Below, in pieces: positions 24,123 to 30,071 of a stretch of 64,000 nt of DNA. Numbering within the stretch: position 1 is the stretch's first letter; each line of letters opens with the position of its first letter. The notes beneath the pieces were generated by a model. The model was not told where the DNA came from, searched no databases, and worked only from the letters and a program-made list of their open reading frames with translations. Position numbers and translations under genes: made by a program. The DNA comes from Thraustochytrium sp. TN22 (taxonomy: Eukaryota; Sar; Bigyra; Thraustochytrida; Thraustochytriidae): NCBI GenBank assembly GCA_013306675.1, contig JABLUY010000127.1, positions 1 through 64,000 on the forward strand, in the 5' to 3' direction.

Positions 24123-24485
24123 TTGCGCAGCGCCCTGGGCTTGATCGCGGAGAAACCACTTGTCAGGAGTTGTGCCATCAAGGTTGGACGCCATGCGGCC
24201 ATGGTAGTATGATGGTACCCCTGGTAGCCCGCCCTCCTCATGTCATGTCAGCTACTTACTAATAAGACGTGACACGTGCTGCTGCAAAAGATCTAACTTA
24301 GGGCGGCGGACGCGCGCCCGGCGAGCCGCGGTTCGACCTCGACTCTGCAGCTACGTTCTGCAAAAGCGCATCAGGCGCCGGCGCGGGCGCGCAGAGAGAG
24401 ACCGAGGGGAGAGCGAGGGACGGCGAGCGCGCAGCCCGAGCGGCGCCCGCGGACGGCGCGCGGCTCTCGGCGCTGGCCAGCGAAG

Positions 24486-27400
24486 ATGGCGCCGCACGAC
24501 GGGGACGCGCGCGCGAGCCGCGTGGTGGGCTCCGTCGGGTTCGAGCGGCCCGAGGTGGTGGAGGTGACGCGGCAGGACATGCTCGTGGAGGAGGGCGTGC
24601 ACTGCGCGATGCCGTACTGCGTCAAGTTCTACGCGCCGGCGGGCGCGGACGCCGAGGAGGCCAAGGAGCGCGTGCGCAAGGCGTGCTGCGCGGTCTTCGA
24701 GGAGACGGAGCGCGTCTTTAGCCTTTGGCGCGATGACAGCGAGCTGTGCGCCATCAACGCGCTGGCCGCGGAGGAGTCGCGCGAGCTGTCGCCGCCCATG
24801 CAGACGGTGCTGGCGGCGGCGGCCGAGGCGGTGCGGCAGACCCGCGGCGCCTTCGACCCGGCCTTTCGGCCGCTGCTGGACCACTACGTGGCGGCGGCGC
24901 GCAAACGGCACAACGCGCAGGCGGCACCCGCCAGCCCGTCGCATGGGCCGCCGCCGGCGGACTGGGAGAAGCGCCTGGGCGAGCGCGCCGTGACGCTGTG
25001 GCGGTCGCTCCTGGACCGCGGCTTCGGTGACGAAGGCGGCATCTCGCGCGCCGTGCAGCACGTCAAGGCGCACGCGAGCTGGGACTCGAGCTTCTCGCTG
25101 AGCGCCGATGGCACGCGCATCACCAAACTGCTGGGCGGCGCGCGCCTGGACCTGAACGGGATCGCCAAGGGTTGGGCCATCGACGAACTCGTAGACCGCC
25201 TGCAGCGCGACGCCGGCCTGGCGTCCGCCTTCGTGGACTGGGCCGGCGACATCAAGGTGCTAGGCGCGCACCCGGACGGCCGCCCGTGGACCGTGGCCAT
25301 CGTGGAGCCGCCCTCGCTGGACCGCCTCGAGCAGGCCGCGGCGCACGCCGCGCAGTCCGAGGACCAGGTCTCGCTGCGGCTCGGCACGAGCGGCGCCTTC
25401 TACGAGGCGCACACCGTCCCGGCCGGCAGCGTGAAAAAGTACCTTGTGCAGCTGGAGCTGGCCTCGGGCCAGGCCGTGGCCACCTCGGGCGACTACGAGC
25501 ACGTCTTTCGGCACCGCGGCCGCCTGTACGCGCACGTGCTGGACCCGCGCAAGGCCGCCATGGCGCTCGTGGACAACGAGAGCCTGGCGCAGGCCACCGT
25601 GGTGTGCTCGTCCGCCATGTTCGCGGACGCGCTCGCCACGGCGGCCCTGGCGGCGCGCGCGCCACCGGCGGCGCGCGCGCTCCTCGACCCTCTGCGCACC
25701 TGCTTCCACAAACCGCTCACGGACTTTGTGCTGTACGCGCGCGGCGGCCCGCGCGTGGTGCGCATGAGCGTGCCCGGCGTCGAGCTCAAGGCGTCGCGCG
25801 AGGCGCGCTGGAAGGAGCACAGCCCGGCGCGCGTCGTCATCGTGGGCGCGGGCCTGGCCGGCTTCAGCGCCGCCGTGGAGGCCGCCGACGCCGGCGCCAG
25901 CGTCGTGCTGCTCGAGAAGGAGGCGCGCACCGGCGGCAACTCCGCCAAGGCGACCTCGGGCATCAACGGCTGGGGCACGTCCACGCAGGCCGAGCTCGGC
26001 GTCGCGGACCGCGAGGCGCTCTTCGAGCGCGACACGCATCGCAGCGGCAAGGGCGGCTGCACGCACCAGAGTCTCGTGCGCACGCTGTCCACCAAGTCGG
26101 CGCCCGCCGTGGACTGGCTCAGGACGCGCTTCGGCATCCCGCTCACCGTGCTGAGCCAGCTCGGCGGCCACAGCGCCAAGCGCACGCACCGCGCGCCGCC
26201 CGACGAGCACGGCAACCCGGTGCCCATCGGCTACCTCATCACCAAGACGCTGCGCGCCGCTGTCGACGCTGAATACCAGGGCCGCATCGAGATCCGCACC
26301 AACTGCTGCATGACCGACCTCCTCACGGCCGAGGACGGCAGCGGCCGCATCTGCGGTGTGCGCTACGAGCGCACGGCGCCGGGAAATGGCGACGTGCCCG
26401 CCTCCGCCACGACCGAAACGATCGAGGCGGACGCGGTCGTGCTGGCCACGGGCGGCTTCGGCTGCGACAAGACCTCGAGCAGCCTGCTCAAGCAGTACCG
26501 GCCTGACCTGGACGGCATCCCCACGACGAACGGCGCCTTCGCCACGGGCGACGGCGTCAAGGTCGCCGCGCGCCTCGGCGCCAACCTCATCGACATGGAC
26601 AAGGTGCAGCTGCATCCGACGGGCTTCGTGGACCCCAAGGACCCGTCCAACCCAACCAAGTTCCTCGCCCCGGAGGCCATCCGCGGGTCCGGCGGCGTCC
26701 TCGTCAACGGCGATGGCCGCCGCTTCGTGGACGAGCTCGACCTGCGCAGCGTGGTTGCGGCCGCCATTCAAAAGAACTGCGCGCCCTACCGCGACGGCGA
26801 CTATACGGGACAGCCCTTCGCCTGGGTCATCCTCTCGCAGGCTGCGCAGGAGCTCTTCGGCCCGCCCACGCTCGCCTTTTACCGCGACCGCCTCGGTCTC
26901 TTCGAGTCCTGCGAGGACGTGGCCGCCTGCGCGCGCATCATCGGCTGCGATGCGGCGCAGCTCGAGAGCACGCTGGCGGCCTACGAGCGCGCCGCGGCCA
27001 GTGGCGTGTGCGAGCAGACCGGCAAGCTGGTCTTCCCGTCCAGCATCGGGGCGGGCGACCGCAATCTGGTCATGGCGCGCGTCACGCCGAGCATCCACTA
27101 CACCATGGGCGGCGTCGACATCAACGCGAGCGCCGAGGTGCAGTCGCTCATCCCGAACAACGTCATCGGCAAGCACCGGCACATCCCCGGCCTCTTCGCT
27201 GCGGGCGAGGTCACGGGCGGCGTGCACGGCGCGAACCGCCTCGGCGGCAACAGCCTGCTGGAGTGCGTCGTCTTCGGCCGCATCGCCGGCGAGCGCGCCG
27301 CCACCATCAAGCAGCCGCGCGCCTCGCTGCTCGCGGACGCCGAAACCTCGGCACCGGCCGGCTGGGTCACCTGCGTGCTGCGCGAGACGCGCAACACGGA

Positions 27401-28166
27401 CCACACGTACGGCAAGAACACGCGCGAGATCCGCTTCAACCTGCATGGGTCGCTGCAGAGCTCCGGGCTCAAGGTGGGCCAGTATGTGGCGCTGCGCGGT
27501 GAGCTCGACGGCGAGACACTTCTGGGCTTTTTCTCGCCCGTCACGCGTCCCGGCGACGAGGGCGTCATCGGCATCCTCTGCCGCCTCGACGAGCGCGGCG
27601 GGCCCATCTACAAGTTGCTCCAGTACATCCGACCTGGGTCTGTGCTGCAGATGAAGGCCATGGGCGGCCTGCGCATCGCCTTCTCGCGCGAGACCGGCAT
27701 CCAGTACGAGGGGCGCACGATCCGGCGCCTCGGCTTCTTGGCAGCTGGCACAGGCATCGCGCCCATGGTGCAGATGATCCGCGAGTACATTCACTTCGCC
27801 ACGCGGTTGCGCGAGGCTGGCCACGCGGACCAGGTCGCCAATCTGGGCGCGAACCTTCTCTTCGCCGCCGAGGAGGAGGACGACCTCGCCTTCCTCAAGT
27901 GCTTTGAAGACCTGCAGGCCAAGTTCCCGCAGGACTTTCGCTACTACTGCATCCTCAACAAGCCGCCCCTGGGCTGGACGGAGGGCGTCGGCTTCATCAA
28001 GCCCGCCAACATCCGCAAGCACGTCTTTTTCCCGCCCGCTGATGACCAGCTCTTTGTCATTTGCGGCCCGCCCGTCTTTGAGCGCATCATGACCAAGACC
28101 TTGGCCGACCTCGGCTTTGCGCCCAACCAGTACTACGCCTACTCGCAAGACGACGAGTCCGAATAG
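24486..28166 (+). CDS. Three-domain NADH-dependent fumarate reductase (ApbE-FrdA-cyt b5 reductase)
   Basis: A 1226-residue fusion with the layout of kinetoplastid soluble fumarate reductase. An ApbE-like flavin transferase domain (about 30-395) shows VFSLWRDDSELCAIN, LDLNGIAKGWAIDEL and ATSGDYEHVF. A flavocytochrome-c-type FAD domain (about 450-940) shows VVIVGAGLAGFSAA, GGNSAKATSGINGWG, RGSGGVLVNGDGRRFVDEL and HYTMGGVDI. A cytochrome b5 reductase-like FAD/NADH module (about 960-1226) shows LGFLAAGTGIAPMVQMI and FVICGPPVFE. It should reduce fumarate to succinate with NADH, reoxidising NADH under low oxygen. There is no SKL-type peroxisomal C-terminus (it ends DDESE) and no obvious presequence, so a cytosolic location is inferred. 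Single frame, no intron. It converges on the transporter gene. Confidence 0.95.
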   Translation: MAPHDGDARASRVVGSVGFERPEVVEVTRQDMLVEEGVHCAMPYCVKFYAPAGADAEEAKERVRKACCAVFEETERVFSLWRDDSELCAINALAAEESRELSPPMQTVLAAAAEAVRQTRGAFDPAFRPLLDHYVAAARKRHNAQAAPASPSHGPPPADWEKRLGERAVTLWRSLLDRGFGDEGGISRAVQHVKAHASWDSSFSLSADGTRITKLLGGARLDLNGIAKGWAIDELVDRLQRDAGLASAFVDWAGDIKVLGAHPDGRPWTVAIVEPPSLDRLEQAAAHAAQSEDQVSLRLGTSGAFYEAHTVPAGSVKKYLVQLELASGQAVATSGDYEHVFRHRGRLYAHVLDPRKAAMALVDNESLAQATVVCSSAMFADALATAALAARAPPAARALLDPLRTCFHKPLTDFVLYARGGPRVVRMSVPGVELKASREARWKEHSPARVVIVGAGLAGFSAAVEAADAGASVVLLEKEARTGGNSAKATSGINGWGTSTQAELGVADREALFERDTHRSGKGGCTHQSLVRTLSTKSAPAVDWLRTRFGIPLTVLSQLGGHSAKRTHRAPPDEHGNPVPIGYLITKTLRAAVDAEYQGRIEIRTNCCMTDLLTAEDGSGRICGVRYERTAPGNGDVPASATTETIEADAVVLATGGFGCDKTSSSLLKQYRPDLDGIPTTNGAFATGDGVKVAARLGANLIDMDKVQLHPTGFVDPKDPSNPTKFLAPEAIRGSGGVLVNGDGRRFVDELDLRSVVAAAIQKNCAPYRDGDYTGQPFAWVILSQAAQELFGPPTLAFYRDRLGLFESCEDVAACARIIGCDAAQLESTLAAYERAAASGVCEQTGKLVFPSSIGAGDRNLVMARVTPSIHYTMGGVDINASAEVQSLIPNNVIGKHRHIPGLFAAGEVTGGVHGANRLGGNSLLECVVFGRIAGERAATIKQPRASLLADAETSAPAGWVTCVLRETRNTDHTYGKNTREIRFNLHGSLQSSGLKVGQYVALRGELDGETLLGFFSPVTRPGDEGVIGILCRLDERGGPIYKLLQYIRPGSVLQMKAMGGLRIAFSRETGIQYEGRTIRRLGFLAAGTGIAPMVQMIREYIHFATRLREAGHADQVANLGANLLFAAEEEDDLAFLKCFEDLQAKFPQDFRYYCILNKPPLGWTEGVGFIKPANIRKHVFFPPADDQLFVICGPPVFERIMTKTLADLGFAPNQYYAYSQDDESE

Positions 28167-28411
28167 TTAGTGGCGAGACACTTTCAAATGAGAGGCCTGT
28201 CCATAACCAATCAATTAAAACCGGTTTGCGTGCGCGCCAAGGATCAAGCTTGCCAAGATAGAAAGGACGTTGAATGGGTCTTTTGCTTTACTCGGAAAGA
28301 GAGAAAGGAGTGACAGCAAAAGAAGCGATGGCAGACAGAAGACCGCTGGGGTGGAAGGGCGAGACGCATGTCGCGCGCCGTTTGAGACGCGCCGGGGAGC
28401 ATCCGAGGCCC
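28167..28411. other. Convergent 3' region
   Basis: Short stretch between the fumarate reductase stop and the riboswitch. It includes A+T-richer sequence (CAATTAAAACC near 28209) suited to 3'-end formation on either strand. No gene. Confidence 0.5.
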
Positions 28412-28492
28412 TACCTTCTCCCTCCGCAGGCATTACCAACTGATCAGGTTCAAAGGGTATGATCTCAGCGCCCAAAAAGGACGCACCCCCGA
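28412..28492 (-). promoter_or_regulatory. TPP (thiamine pyrophosphate) riboswitch aptamer
   Basis: Read on the minus strand, this carries the conserved TPP aptamer elements in order: GGGGGTGCG (28482-28490), a GCGTCC/GGGCGC hairpin, CTGAGA (28463-28468), ACCCTTTGAACCTGATC (28442-28458), TAATGCC (28429-28435) and GCGGAGGGA (28419-28427). The GGGGGT and ACCC parts can pair as the P2 helix. It lies about 95 nt past the stop of the SLC19-type transporter on the same strand, so it is in that gene's 3' UTR or a 3' intron, as in plant THIC. A GGTAAT inside the aptamer could serve as a ligand-masked donor site; that is inference. Confidence 0.93.
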
Positions 28493-28586
28493 CCCCATAA
28501 GTCTCTGTGTTCCGCCTCGCTGCAGCAGGCGCGAAGGCTTGCAGCTCGTGGTGCTAGCTCGTGCTGCGGGAGAGACGCTGACGAAA

Positions 28587-30071
28587 TCAGTAGCCGTCAT
28601 CGTCATCGGCAGGCTCCGCGGCAGAGCGCGACTCCAGGTCGGCGCCGCGCGAGCGACGCAGGACGACCAGAGCGACCCAGGTGACGAGAACGGTGGCGAC
28701 GGCCATGGCGTTGAGCACCGCGCCGGACTGCACGAACTGCGCTGCCGAGAAGAGGAGGTCGCCTCCGATGCTCTGCAGGATGACGGCGACGACGAGCGCG
28801 AACATCTGCACGCAGGTGAGCACGAGCGCGTAGCGCTTGACGGCCGGATCGCTGCCGACGGCGGTCTGCAGCGCCACCTCGAGTGCCGCGGCAGCCAGCG
28901 AGCGCAGGATGGCGCAGGCGTAGATGGGTTTGATGATCTCGACCTCGGTCGCCGCCGTCTCGCAGGCGCCCATGATGATGCAGGCCAGGATGGCGAGCAG
29001 CGCGGCGCGGTGCTGCAGGAGGCGCGTGCCGCCGCGCCAGGCAATGAAGAGCGGCGCAAGGCTGCCGATGGCACTGCAGCCCTCGAGGCCCATCTCCAGG
29101 TAGCCGAAGCTGGTGTCCGGGTCGACGTCGTAAAAGAGCACCTGGTAGTAGTTGCCCCAGAGGAAGGTGGCGGCCTCGCTGAACATGGCGGCGCCCACCC
29201 AGATCTTGACGGCGTCGCCGTAGTGCATCATCTCGAAGTTCTCCGGCTTGATGGCGCGGAAGCGCGCCGCGCAATGCTCGTAGCGCAGGTCCGAGAGGTT
29301 CACGAAGAGGCCCAGCGAGCGGCGGCGCGGCAGGCTGGGGAAGCCGACCAGAAAGGCCACGAGGCCGGCCAGCGCAAAGGCCCACGAGATGTAGAAGAGC
29401 GTGCGCAGGTCGTCCGTGGCGCGCTCGACCTGCTCGCCCACCAGCGAGCCGAGCACGTTGCCGAAGTGGTACGAGAAGTACACCAGCGCCGAGGCCTCGG
29501 TGGCCCTCTTGGCCGGTACGACGAGCAGGACGCTGGCAAAGAGCACGAAGGTGCAGGCGATGGCGCCCGAGTACGTGACCTGCATGGCCATCATCATGGT
29601 GAGGCCCTCGCCCCAGATGAGGATGACCCGCGTCGCCTGGCGGAAGAGCAGACCCAGCAGGATGACGCGCCAGTAGCCGATGCGCTCCGCCAGCAGGCCG
29701 GCCGGGATGAGGAAGGCGAGCGTGGATGCCGTGTTGGTCGGCCACACCTTGAGGTTCACCTCGTCCTCGGTGAGCTCCTTGTCCTCGAGCAGGTAGCTCG
29801 ACAGAAAGGGCTCGGACGGCTGGAAGTTCACGAGGAAGCCCACCAGGCTCACGCGCAGCGCCCGCTGCAGCCACCCGTGCTCGAGCGCCGCCTCGCGCGC
29901 CGCCTCGGCGTCCAGACCGTCCTCGTCGCCATCCTCGCGCACGTCGGCGCCGTCGCTGCCGTTCGACGGCGCGTACAGGCCGCGGGCGTCCTGCGCCGGC
30001 AGCATGGCGCGCGCGGGCTCGCCCTCCTGCGCCTCGGCCTCGGCCTTGCGGCCGCTGTCGGTCTGCGTCAT
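28587..30071 (-). CDS. SLC19-type (reduced folate/thiamine carrier) transporter, probably thiamine
   Basis: A 494-residue (from the Met at 30071) polytopic membrane protein resembling SLC19 folate/thiamine carriers. The first helix pair carries FQPSEPFLSSYLLEDKELTEDEVNLKVWP, like the PYLT...L motif of the family. About twelve hydrophobic segments follow (for example LLGLLFRQATRVILIW, AIACTFVLFASVLLVVP and ALVVAVILQSIGG). A large central loop contains LPRRRSLG and NFEMMHYGD. The acidic tails face the cytosol by the positive-inside rule. The TPP riboswitch immediately downstream argues for thiamine as substrate and for feedback control by its product. A Met 63 codons upstream (30260) is in frame, but that stretch covers a GAGC microsatellite and is less convincing. 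Confidence 0.85.
   Translation of the reverse strand: MTQTDSGRKAEAEAQEGEPARAMLPAQDARGLYAPSNGSDGADVREDGDEDGLDAEAAREAALEHGWLQRALRVSLVGFLVNFQPSEPFLSSYLLEDKELTEDEVNLKVWPTNTASTLAFLIPAGLLAERIGYWRVILLGLLFRQATRVILIWGEGLTMMMAMQVTYSGAIACTFVLFASVLLVVPAKRATEASALVYFSYHFGNVLGSLVGEQVERATDDLRTLFYISWAFALAGLVAFLVGFPSLPRRRSLGLFVNLSDLRYEHCAARFRAIKPENFEMMHYGDAVKIWVGAAMFSEAATFLWGNYYQVLFYDVDPDTSFGYLEMGLEGCSAIGSLAPLFIAWRGGTRLLQHRAALLAILACIIMGACETAATEVEIIKPIYACAILRSLAAAALEVALQTAVGSDPAVKRYALVLTCVQMFALVVAVILQSIGGDLLFSAAQFVQSGAVLNAMAVATVLVTWVALVVLRRSRGADLESRSAAEPADDDDGY

Follow-up and report, generated by a model that had tools for sequence, protein, structure and literature searches.

Does the 3' region of an SLC19-type transporter gene of Thraustochytrium sp. 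TN22, a marine, fungus-like protist, carry a TPP aptamer, and which genes and which vitamin would such an aptamer serve? The window, i.e. the whole stretch of 64,000 nucleotides that was analysed, had been predicted to hold the conserved blocks of the aptamer on its minus strand, shortly past the transporter stop codon. All of the listed blocks are present and in order: GGGGGTGCG, CTGAGA (28468-28463), ACCCTTTGAACCTGATC, TAATGCC and GCGGAGGGA (28427-28419). A cmscan of positions 28200-28700 yielded a single match, to RF00059, on the minus strand at 28402-28500, which spans model positions 1-105 of 105 with a score of 49.4 bits and an E-value of 9.2e-9. The P2-P5 stems and the ligand-site blocks CUGAGA and GCG, described as the ligand contacts of the TPP aptamer in the accessible text of PMC9544697, all lie within this full-length match. 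The hexamer GGTAAT (28437-28432), in which a splice donor had been proposed, is part of P5/L5 of the aptamer itself, and its presence is therefore no evidence for splicing.

The search of the genome (37.9 Mb in 453 contigs) identified a second copy on contig C93. The genome-wide E-values are 1.7e-7 for the SLC19 copy (49.4 bits) and 2.3e-7 for the C93 copy (48.8 bits), and the respective locus-level values are 9.2e-9 and 1.3e-8, both for full-length matches. The third candidate reached 18.4 bits (E 7.05; search at E ≤10, scoring the top 49 of the 959 first-look candidates). Both copies score below the Rfam gathering score for RF00059 of 54.3, which is a cut-off set by curators and not a structural feature, and a scan of the whole window at the gathering threshold listed nothing. 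The original prediction had named a covariance score below threshold as the result that would speak against it, and the score does fall below; the E-values and the second copy are taken to overrule this. A chance match is rejected on account of both genome-wide E-values and the drop to 18.4 bits. Thus, judged by homology, the segment 28402-28500 (-) is a TPP aptamer homologue despite its sub-gathering score, which is outweighed by the E-values and the second copy.

The aptamer consists of a P2-P5 core with an adjacent P1 stem that is mostly mispaired. Three of the five adjacent P1 pairs are non-standard in each of the two copies, and this mispairing accounts for part of the loss in RF00059 score. 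A possible distal P1 strand at 28321..28354 (-), with its partner at 28491-28521, was drawn by the folding programs; the RNAalifold, minimum-energy and centroid predictions for the copies contain it. Folding of the whole module gave z -1.87, with 7 of 200 shuffles folding equally well, and z -2.89, with 0 of 200. However, the long-range pairing is indistinguishable from chance. In copy 1, 683 and 775 of 1000 shuffles attained the duplex energy of the flanks, and in copy 2, 190 and 411 of 1000 did; their local complementarity was attained in 151 and 165 of 400 shuffles. For anchored complementarity, 475 and 290 of 1000 shuffles did as well, as did 341 of 654 and 434 of 714 real stretches of the window with similar GC. 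Being at chance level in these four tests, the long-range P1 was dropped as evidence.

The gene that precedes the aptamer on the minus strand (28587..30071, stop codon 28589-28587) encodes an SLC19-type carrier of 494 amino acids, counted from the first Met of the frame (30071) and uninterrupted. The protein matches PF01770 with an E-value of 3.4e-29 and 102.3 bits, against a cut-off of 27, and no other PF01770 match was found in the genome. The equivalog model of the SLC19A1-type reduced folate carrier, TIGR00806, gives 60.3 bits where more than 227.4 are needed. The closest of the three proteins found (the best 8000 candidates were scored) is Folate transporter 1 of Hondaea fermentalgiana, a thraustochytrid, with 58% sequence identity. 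Relatives of the SLC19 profile are absent from the viral contig and genome contig collections searched, and the exact aptamer pattern had zero matches in the viral contig collection. The distance from the stop codon to the Rfam aptamer boundary is 86 nt; the predicted spacing of about 95 nt is reproduced when counted to the start first assigned to the element, at 28492, and not when counted to the Rfam boundary. On the opposite strand, a stop-to-stop frame at 24297..28166 (+) is gene-like in its 1289 open codons and its codon-position GC pattern. Because this downstream frame is convergent and ends at 28166, the aptamer is sense to the SLC19 transcript and antisense to the neighbour. The stop codons of the two genes are separated by 420 nt, and the end of the neighbour bounds the SLC19 3' region. 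The central claim, that an SLC19-type gene carries a TPP aptamer in its 3' region, is thus supported by the RF00059 and PF01770 matches and by the convergent orientation of the next gene-like frame. Read by eye, the neighbour combines an ApbE-like part, a fumarate-reductase-type flavoprotein and a cytochrome-b5-reductase-like tail. The window has a GC content of 64-70%, and third-position GC is about 0.8-0.95 in most of its gene-like frames; this high third-position GC opens long mirror frames opposite many genes, which is a trap for gene calling.

The second aptamer, C93:42005-42102, begins 77 nt past the stop codon of a gene whose product matches PF03024, the folate-receptor family, with an E-value of 4.5e-31. 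The protein is hydrophobic over a stretch at its N-terminus and over one segment at its C-terminus, and its best-scoring relative likewise comes from Hondaea (62%). Common to the two aptamer loci is a location at the 3' end of a gene of uptake type. A large frame on the same strand starts about 0.85 kb past the second aptamer, which could conceivably have a 5' role for that frame. Observed 3' of the folate-receptor-type gene is a same-strand frame of approximately 2550 codons (L020:3-7658 (-)), whose product, judged by eye, has cysteine-rich repeat units with Pro/Thr-rich linkers and looks like a repeat-rich surface protein. The genome contains three more PF03024 matches, one of them above cut-off. 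No TPP match (E ≤1) was found in the 24,351 bases that cover these three loci together with those of TPK, the only SSF-family match and a rejected TMP-TENI match.

The similarity between the two loci extends past the aptamer. A 3' module of 277 nt (28262..28538 (-)) is common to the SLC19 gene and the C93 folate-receptor-type gene, genes from different families (PF01770 and PF03024), and occurs at these two genomic places; its copies are identical in 255 of 284 alignment columns, with 15 gap columns. The differences are distributed as 4/39 columns upstream, 4/99 in the aptamer, 8/50 in the hairpin region, 2/35 in the next arm, 11/38 in the pyrimidine tract with AGTAAA, and 0/23 at the end. With borders set after viewing the alignment, the aptamer (4/99) varies less than the hairpin and tract together (19/88; Fisher p 0.0003) and less than the hairpin alone (p 0.02), whereas its conservation does not differ significantly from that of the 39 upstream columns (p 0.22). 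The two copies are too similar for covariation to appear. The pyrimidine tract followed by AGTAAA (28287..28310 (-)), present in both copies, may act as a 3' splice acceptor or as a poly(A) element. Among 34 gene-like 3' flanks, taken from frames chosen by codon-position GC and including two shorter than 400 nt (240 and 9), AGTAAA occurs in two, both of them the modules, against an expectation of 0.35. As a general poly(A) signal of the genome it is therefore rejected. A terminal 20-mer (28265..28284 (-)) is conserved at G000:C93:41869-41888 (-); allowing up to three mismatches, it was found at two places in the genome, which lie in the two modules and match it exactly, and a reversed control pattern was found at one place. 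The module accordingly holds more than an aptamer, and an expression platform is most likely to lie in its downstream part.

What the organism would need from such a switch can be gauged from its thiamine genes. THIC and NMT1/THI5 had zero matches in the genome. The 12 THI4 matches, five of them above cut-off, each cover a short part of the model, inside positions 11-65 of 235, and were judged to be nucleotide-binding stretches of other flavoproteins. The one TMP-TENI (TMP synthase) match is below cut-off, and its frame reads by eye as nitronate-monooxygenase-like. TPK is clear, in an open frame with an E-value of 6.7e-29. Because THIC, THI4, TMP synthase and NMT1/THI5 are without a convincing match and TPK is present, the organism probably imports thiamine, as far as gene content can tell in an assembly that is possibly incomplete and in which split exons may escape the search. 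The only SSF-family match of the genome, a frame of 663 codons on contig C94 (L027:751-2742 (-)), is without a TPP aptamer, and the nearest PDB entry to its product is sodium/glucose cotransporter 1 (E 3e-90). Among the transporter families searched (SLC19, PF03024 and SSF), the SLC19 gene and the folate-receptor gene were found as candidates for uptake.

The substrate of the carrier was assessed by comparison with the thiamine contacts of SLC19A3 reported in the available text of PMC11447181. Five of the nine contact positions are identical, E32, Y113, N297, Q300 and E320 corresponding to E91, Y171, N311, Q314 and E334 of the carrier. F56 is W114, and W59, W94 and E110 are replaced by N117, R152 and Q168. 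With the exception of N117, the carrier residues compared are invariant across four aligned proteins. At the positions of N297 and Q300, SLC19A1 has Tyr and His; at E320 the printed alignments of SLC19A1 disagree by a one-residue gap, and the gapped version gives Asp. A PDB search with the single sequence does not separate the folate carrier (2.3e-12) from thiamine transporter 2 (2.9e-12). The four-protein profile places thiamine transporter 2 at the top (6.2e-24), with folate carriers from 1.5e-18. The residue and profile comparison leans to thiamine as the substrate. The earlier assignment of thiamine accordingly holds in part: the synthesis genes without convincing match, the presence of TPK and the retained N297, Q300 and E320 agree with it, and the replaced W59, W94 and E110 do not.

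Taken together, the two loci suggest a small vitamin B1 uptake circuit of an SLC19 carrier and a folate-receptor-like gene. That a TPP-responsive 3' module governs both genes for thiamine uptake is, in our estimate, probable by a modest measure. Both genes would serve thiamine uptake, one supplying an extracellular binding protein and the other a membrane carrier, and TPK would turn the imported thiamine into TPP. TPP would then bind the aptamer in the transcript and alter 3'-end formation or 3'-UTR splicing via the pyrimidine tract, AGTAAA and the terminal element, such that the mRNAs would drop when TPP is plentiful and climb when it is scarce. This explanation is favoured by the placement of both copies less than 90 nt past the stop codons of uptake-type genes, by the E-values of the aptamer and its distance from the 18.4-bit candidate, by the PF03024 riboswitch precedents, including the 80-fold rise described for Micromonas ATS1 (PMC4260697), and by the absence of a TPP match at the other PF03024, TPK and SSF loci. 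It is further favoured by synthesis genes without convincing match next to a clear TPK and a sole SSF protein that is glucose-cotransporter-like, and by an aptamer that varies less (4/99) than the hairpin and tract (19/88). It is weakened by the sub-gathering score, the three of five non-standard P1 pairs, the upstream comparison (p 0.22), copies too alike for covariation, the replacement of W59, W94 and E110, and a PDB search that blends folate and thiamine carriers, as well as by the negative result from P. tricornutum described in PMC9544697. Regulation by the aptamer is likely by association, with that diatom result as a serious negative precedent.

The same diatom result, together with the mispaired adjacent P1 and the sub-threshold score, would equally fit a true aptamer homologue that does not regulate, whether as a relic or as a binder lacking output, like the diatom THIC aptamer (PMC9544697). 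However, the core survives in two copies that differ in 4/99 columns, a lower share than the hairpin and tract show (recent copying would also leave few changes). Both copies also stand behind genes of uptake type, and no convincing genes for thiamine synthesis were found in the genome. A non-regulating homologue is considered unlikely, if still to be reckoned with. A working switch might instead control an SLC19 protein with another cargo, such as thiamine phosphates, the pyrimidine precursor or folate. The carrier has R152 and Q168, invariant in the four aligned proteins, in place of W94 and E110 of SLC19A3, W94R is a listed disease mutation of SLC19A3 (PMC11447181), and the closest relative bears the name folate transporter. 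Against another cargo, which appears improbable, stand the retained E32, Y113, N297, Q300 and E320 positions, the aromatic position F56 occupied by Trp, and the profile that ranks thiamine transporter 2 (6.2e-24) ahead of the folate carriers (from 1.5e-18). A fortuitous match in sequence of high GC, or an artefact of assembly, could draw on the score under the curated gathering score, yet the genome-wide E-values of 1.7e-7 and 2.3e-7, the clean gap to 18.4 bits and the occurrence on two contigs behind different genes make it exceedingly improbable. The TPP-responsive module also admits a further-reading version, offered tentatively as a possibility. A cassette of approximately 280 nt, comprising the aptamer and its own 3'-end control region, may have been duplicated in one piece from the 3' end of one gene to that of another, unrelated gene, which would place one TPP switch over a folate-receptor-type protein and a folate-carrier-type transporter. 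The pair would be a vitamin B1 receptor and carrier, and the switch would operate through 3'-end formation in genes whose coding regions lack introns. If true, this would account for the unassigned ATS1/FOLR genes of algae.

The riboswitch of plant THIC belongs to a biosynthesis gene and its splicing mechanism is known, whereas here the aptamer follows a carrier gene with an intron-free coding frame, and the mechanism is a proposal. Human SLC19A2 and SLC19A3 resemble the carrier in the PF01770 domain and in the residues at the E32, Y113, N297, Q300 and E320 positions but differ from it at W59, W94 and E110. To our knowledge, there is no riboswitch in animals. The 3'-UTR position of the aptamer is shared with plant THIC, as mentioned in PMC9544697, and with diatoms, in which THIC, SSSP, NMT1-domain and FOLR genes have 3'-UTR aptamers (Llavero-Pasquina et al. 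2022, PMC9544697). The diatom THIC and SSSP aptamers further resemble the present one in their stramenopile origin and in GCGG on the aptamer 3' side, and SSSP is a thiamine transporter (PMC9544697), although of another family than SLC19. Here an AG follows, in GCGGAGGG, whereas an AG is described as absent nearby in the diatoms (PMC9544697). In P. tricornutum, no response to thiamine is reported for the 3'-UTR THIC aptamer, whether in the level of the transcript, in its splicing and polyadenylation, or in reporters (PMC9544697).

The literature already contains TPP aptamers at transporter genes and at folate-receptor genes, as well as aptamers located in 3' UTRs. According to the available text of McRose et al. 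2014 (PMC4260697), 31 new TPP riboswitches were assigned to eight genes, in 5' and 3' UTRs, one of them in the labyrinthulomycete Aplanochytrium. The gene types include SSS-family transporters and ATS1 (PF03024), and 25 of the 31 are tied to poorly characterised genes, sodium:solute symporters among them. The statement in the original prediction that eukaryotic TPP riboswitches are known mainly in biosynthesis genes finds no support in this count (PMC4260697) or in the diatom SSSP 3'-UTR aptamers (PMC9544697). SLC19 was not seen among the eight gene types as given in that text of PMC4260697, whose main text does not contain the term slc19; in PMC9544697, as available, the term occurs once, in a reference title. 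In the open-licence literature (titles, and abstract starts for some), no report of a TPP riboswitch on an SLC19 gene was found, and no paper on a TPP riboswitch in a thraustochytrid was found in the same literature. The C93 locus fits the description of the ATS1/FOLR riboswitches, with a TPP aptamer at a gene for a PF03024 protein, likened by family and not by orthology, and 3'-UTR positions are reported for that type (PMC4260697, PMC9544697); in Micromonas RCC299, ATS1 has 3'-UTR riboswitches and rises 80-fold without thiamine (PMC4260697). The difference is that here the same 3' module also stands behind an SLC19 carrier gene. The SLC19 family is now tied to putative TPP riboswitch control, and the sharing of a 3' module between the carrier and a folate-receptor-like gene of the ATS1/FOLR type, functionally unassigned in algae, leads to a direct test of such proteins. 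After the negative result in the diatom, the two loci also offer another stramenopile setting for the question of whether TPP aptamers in 3' UTRs are functional.
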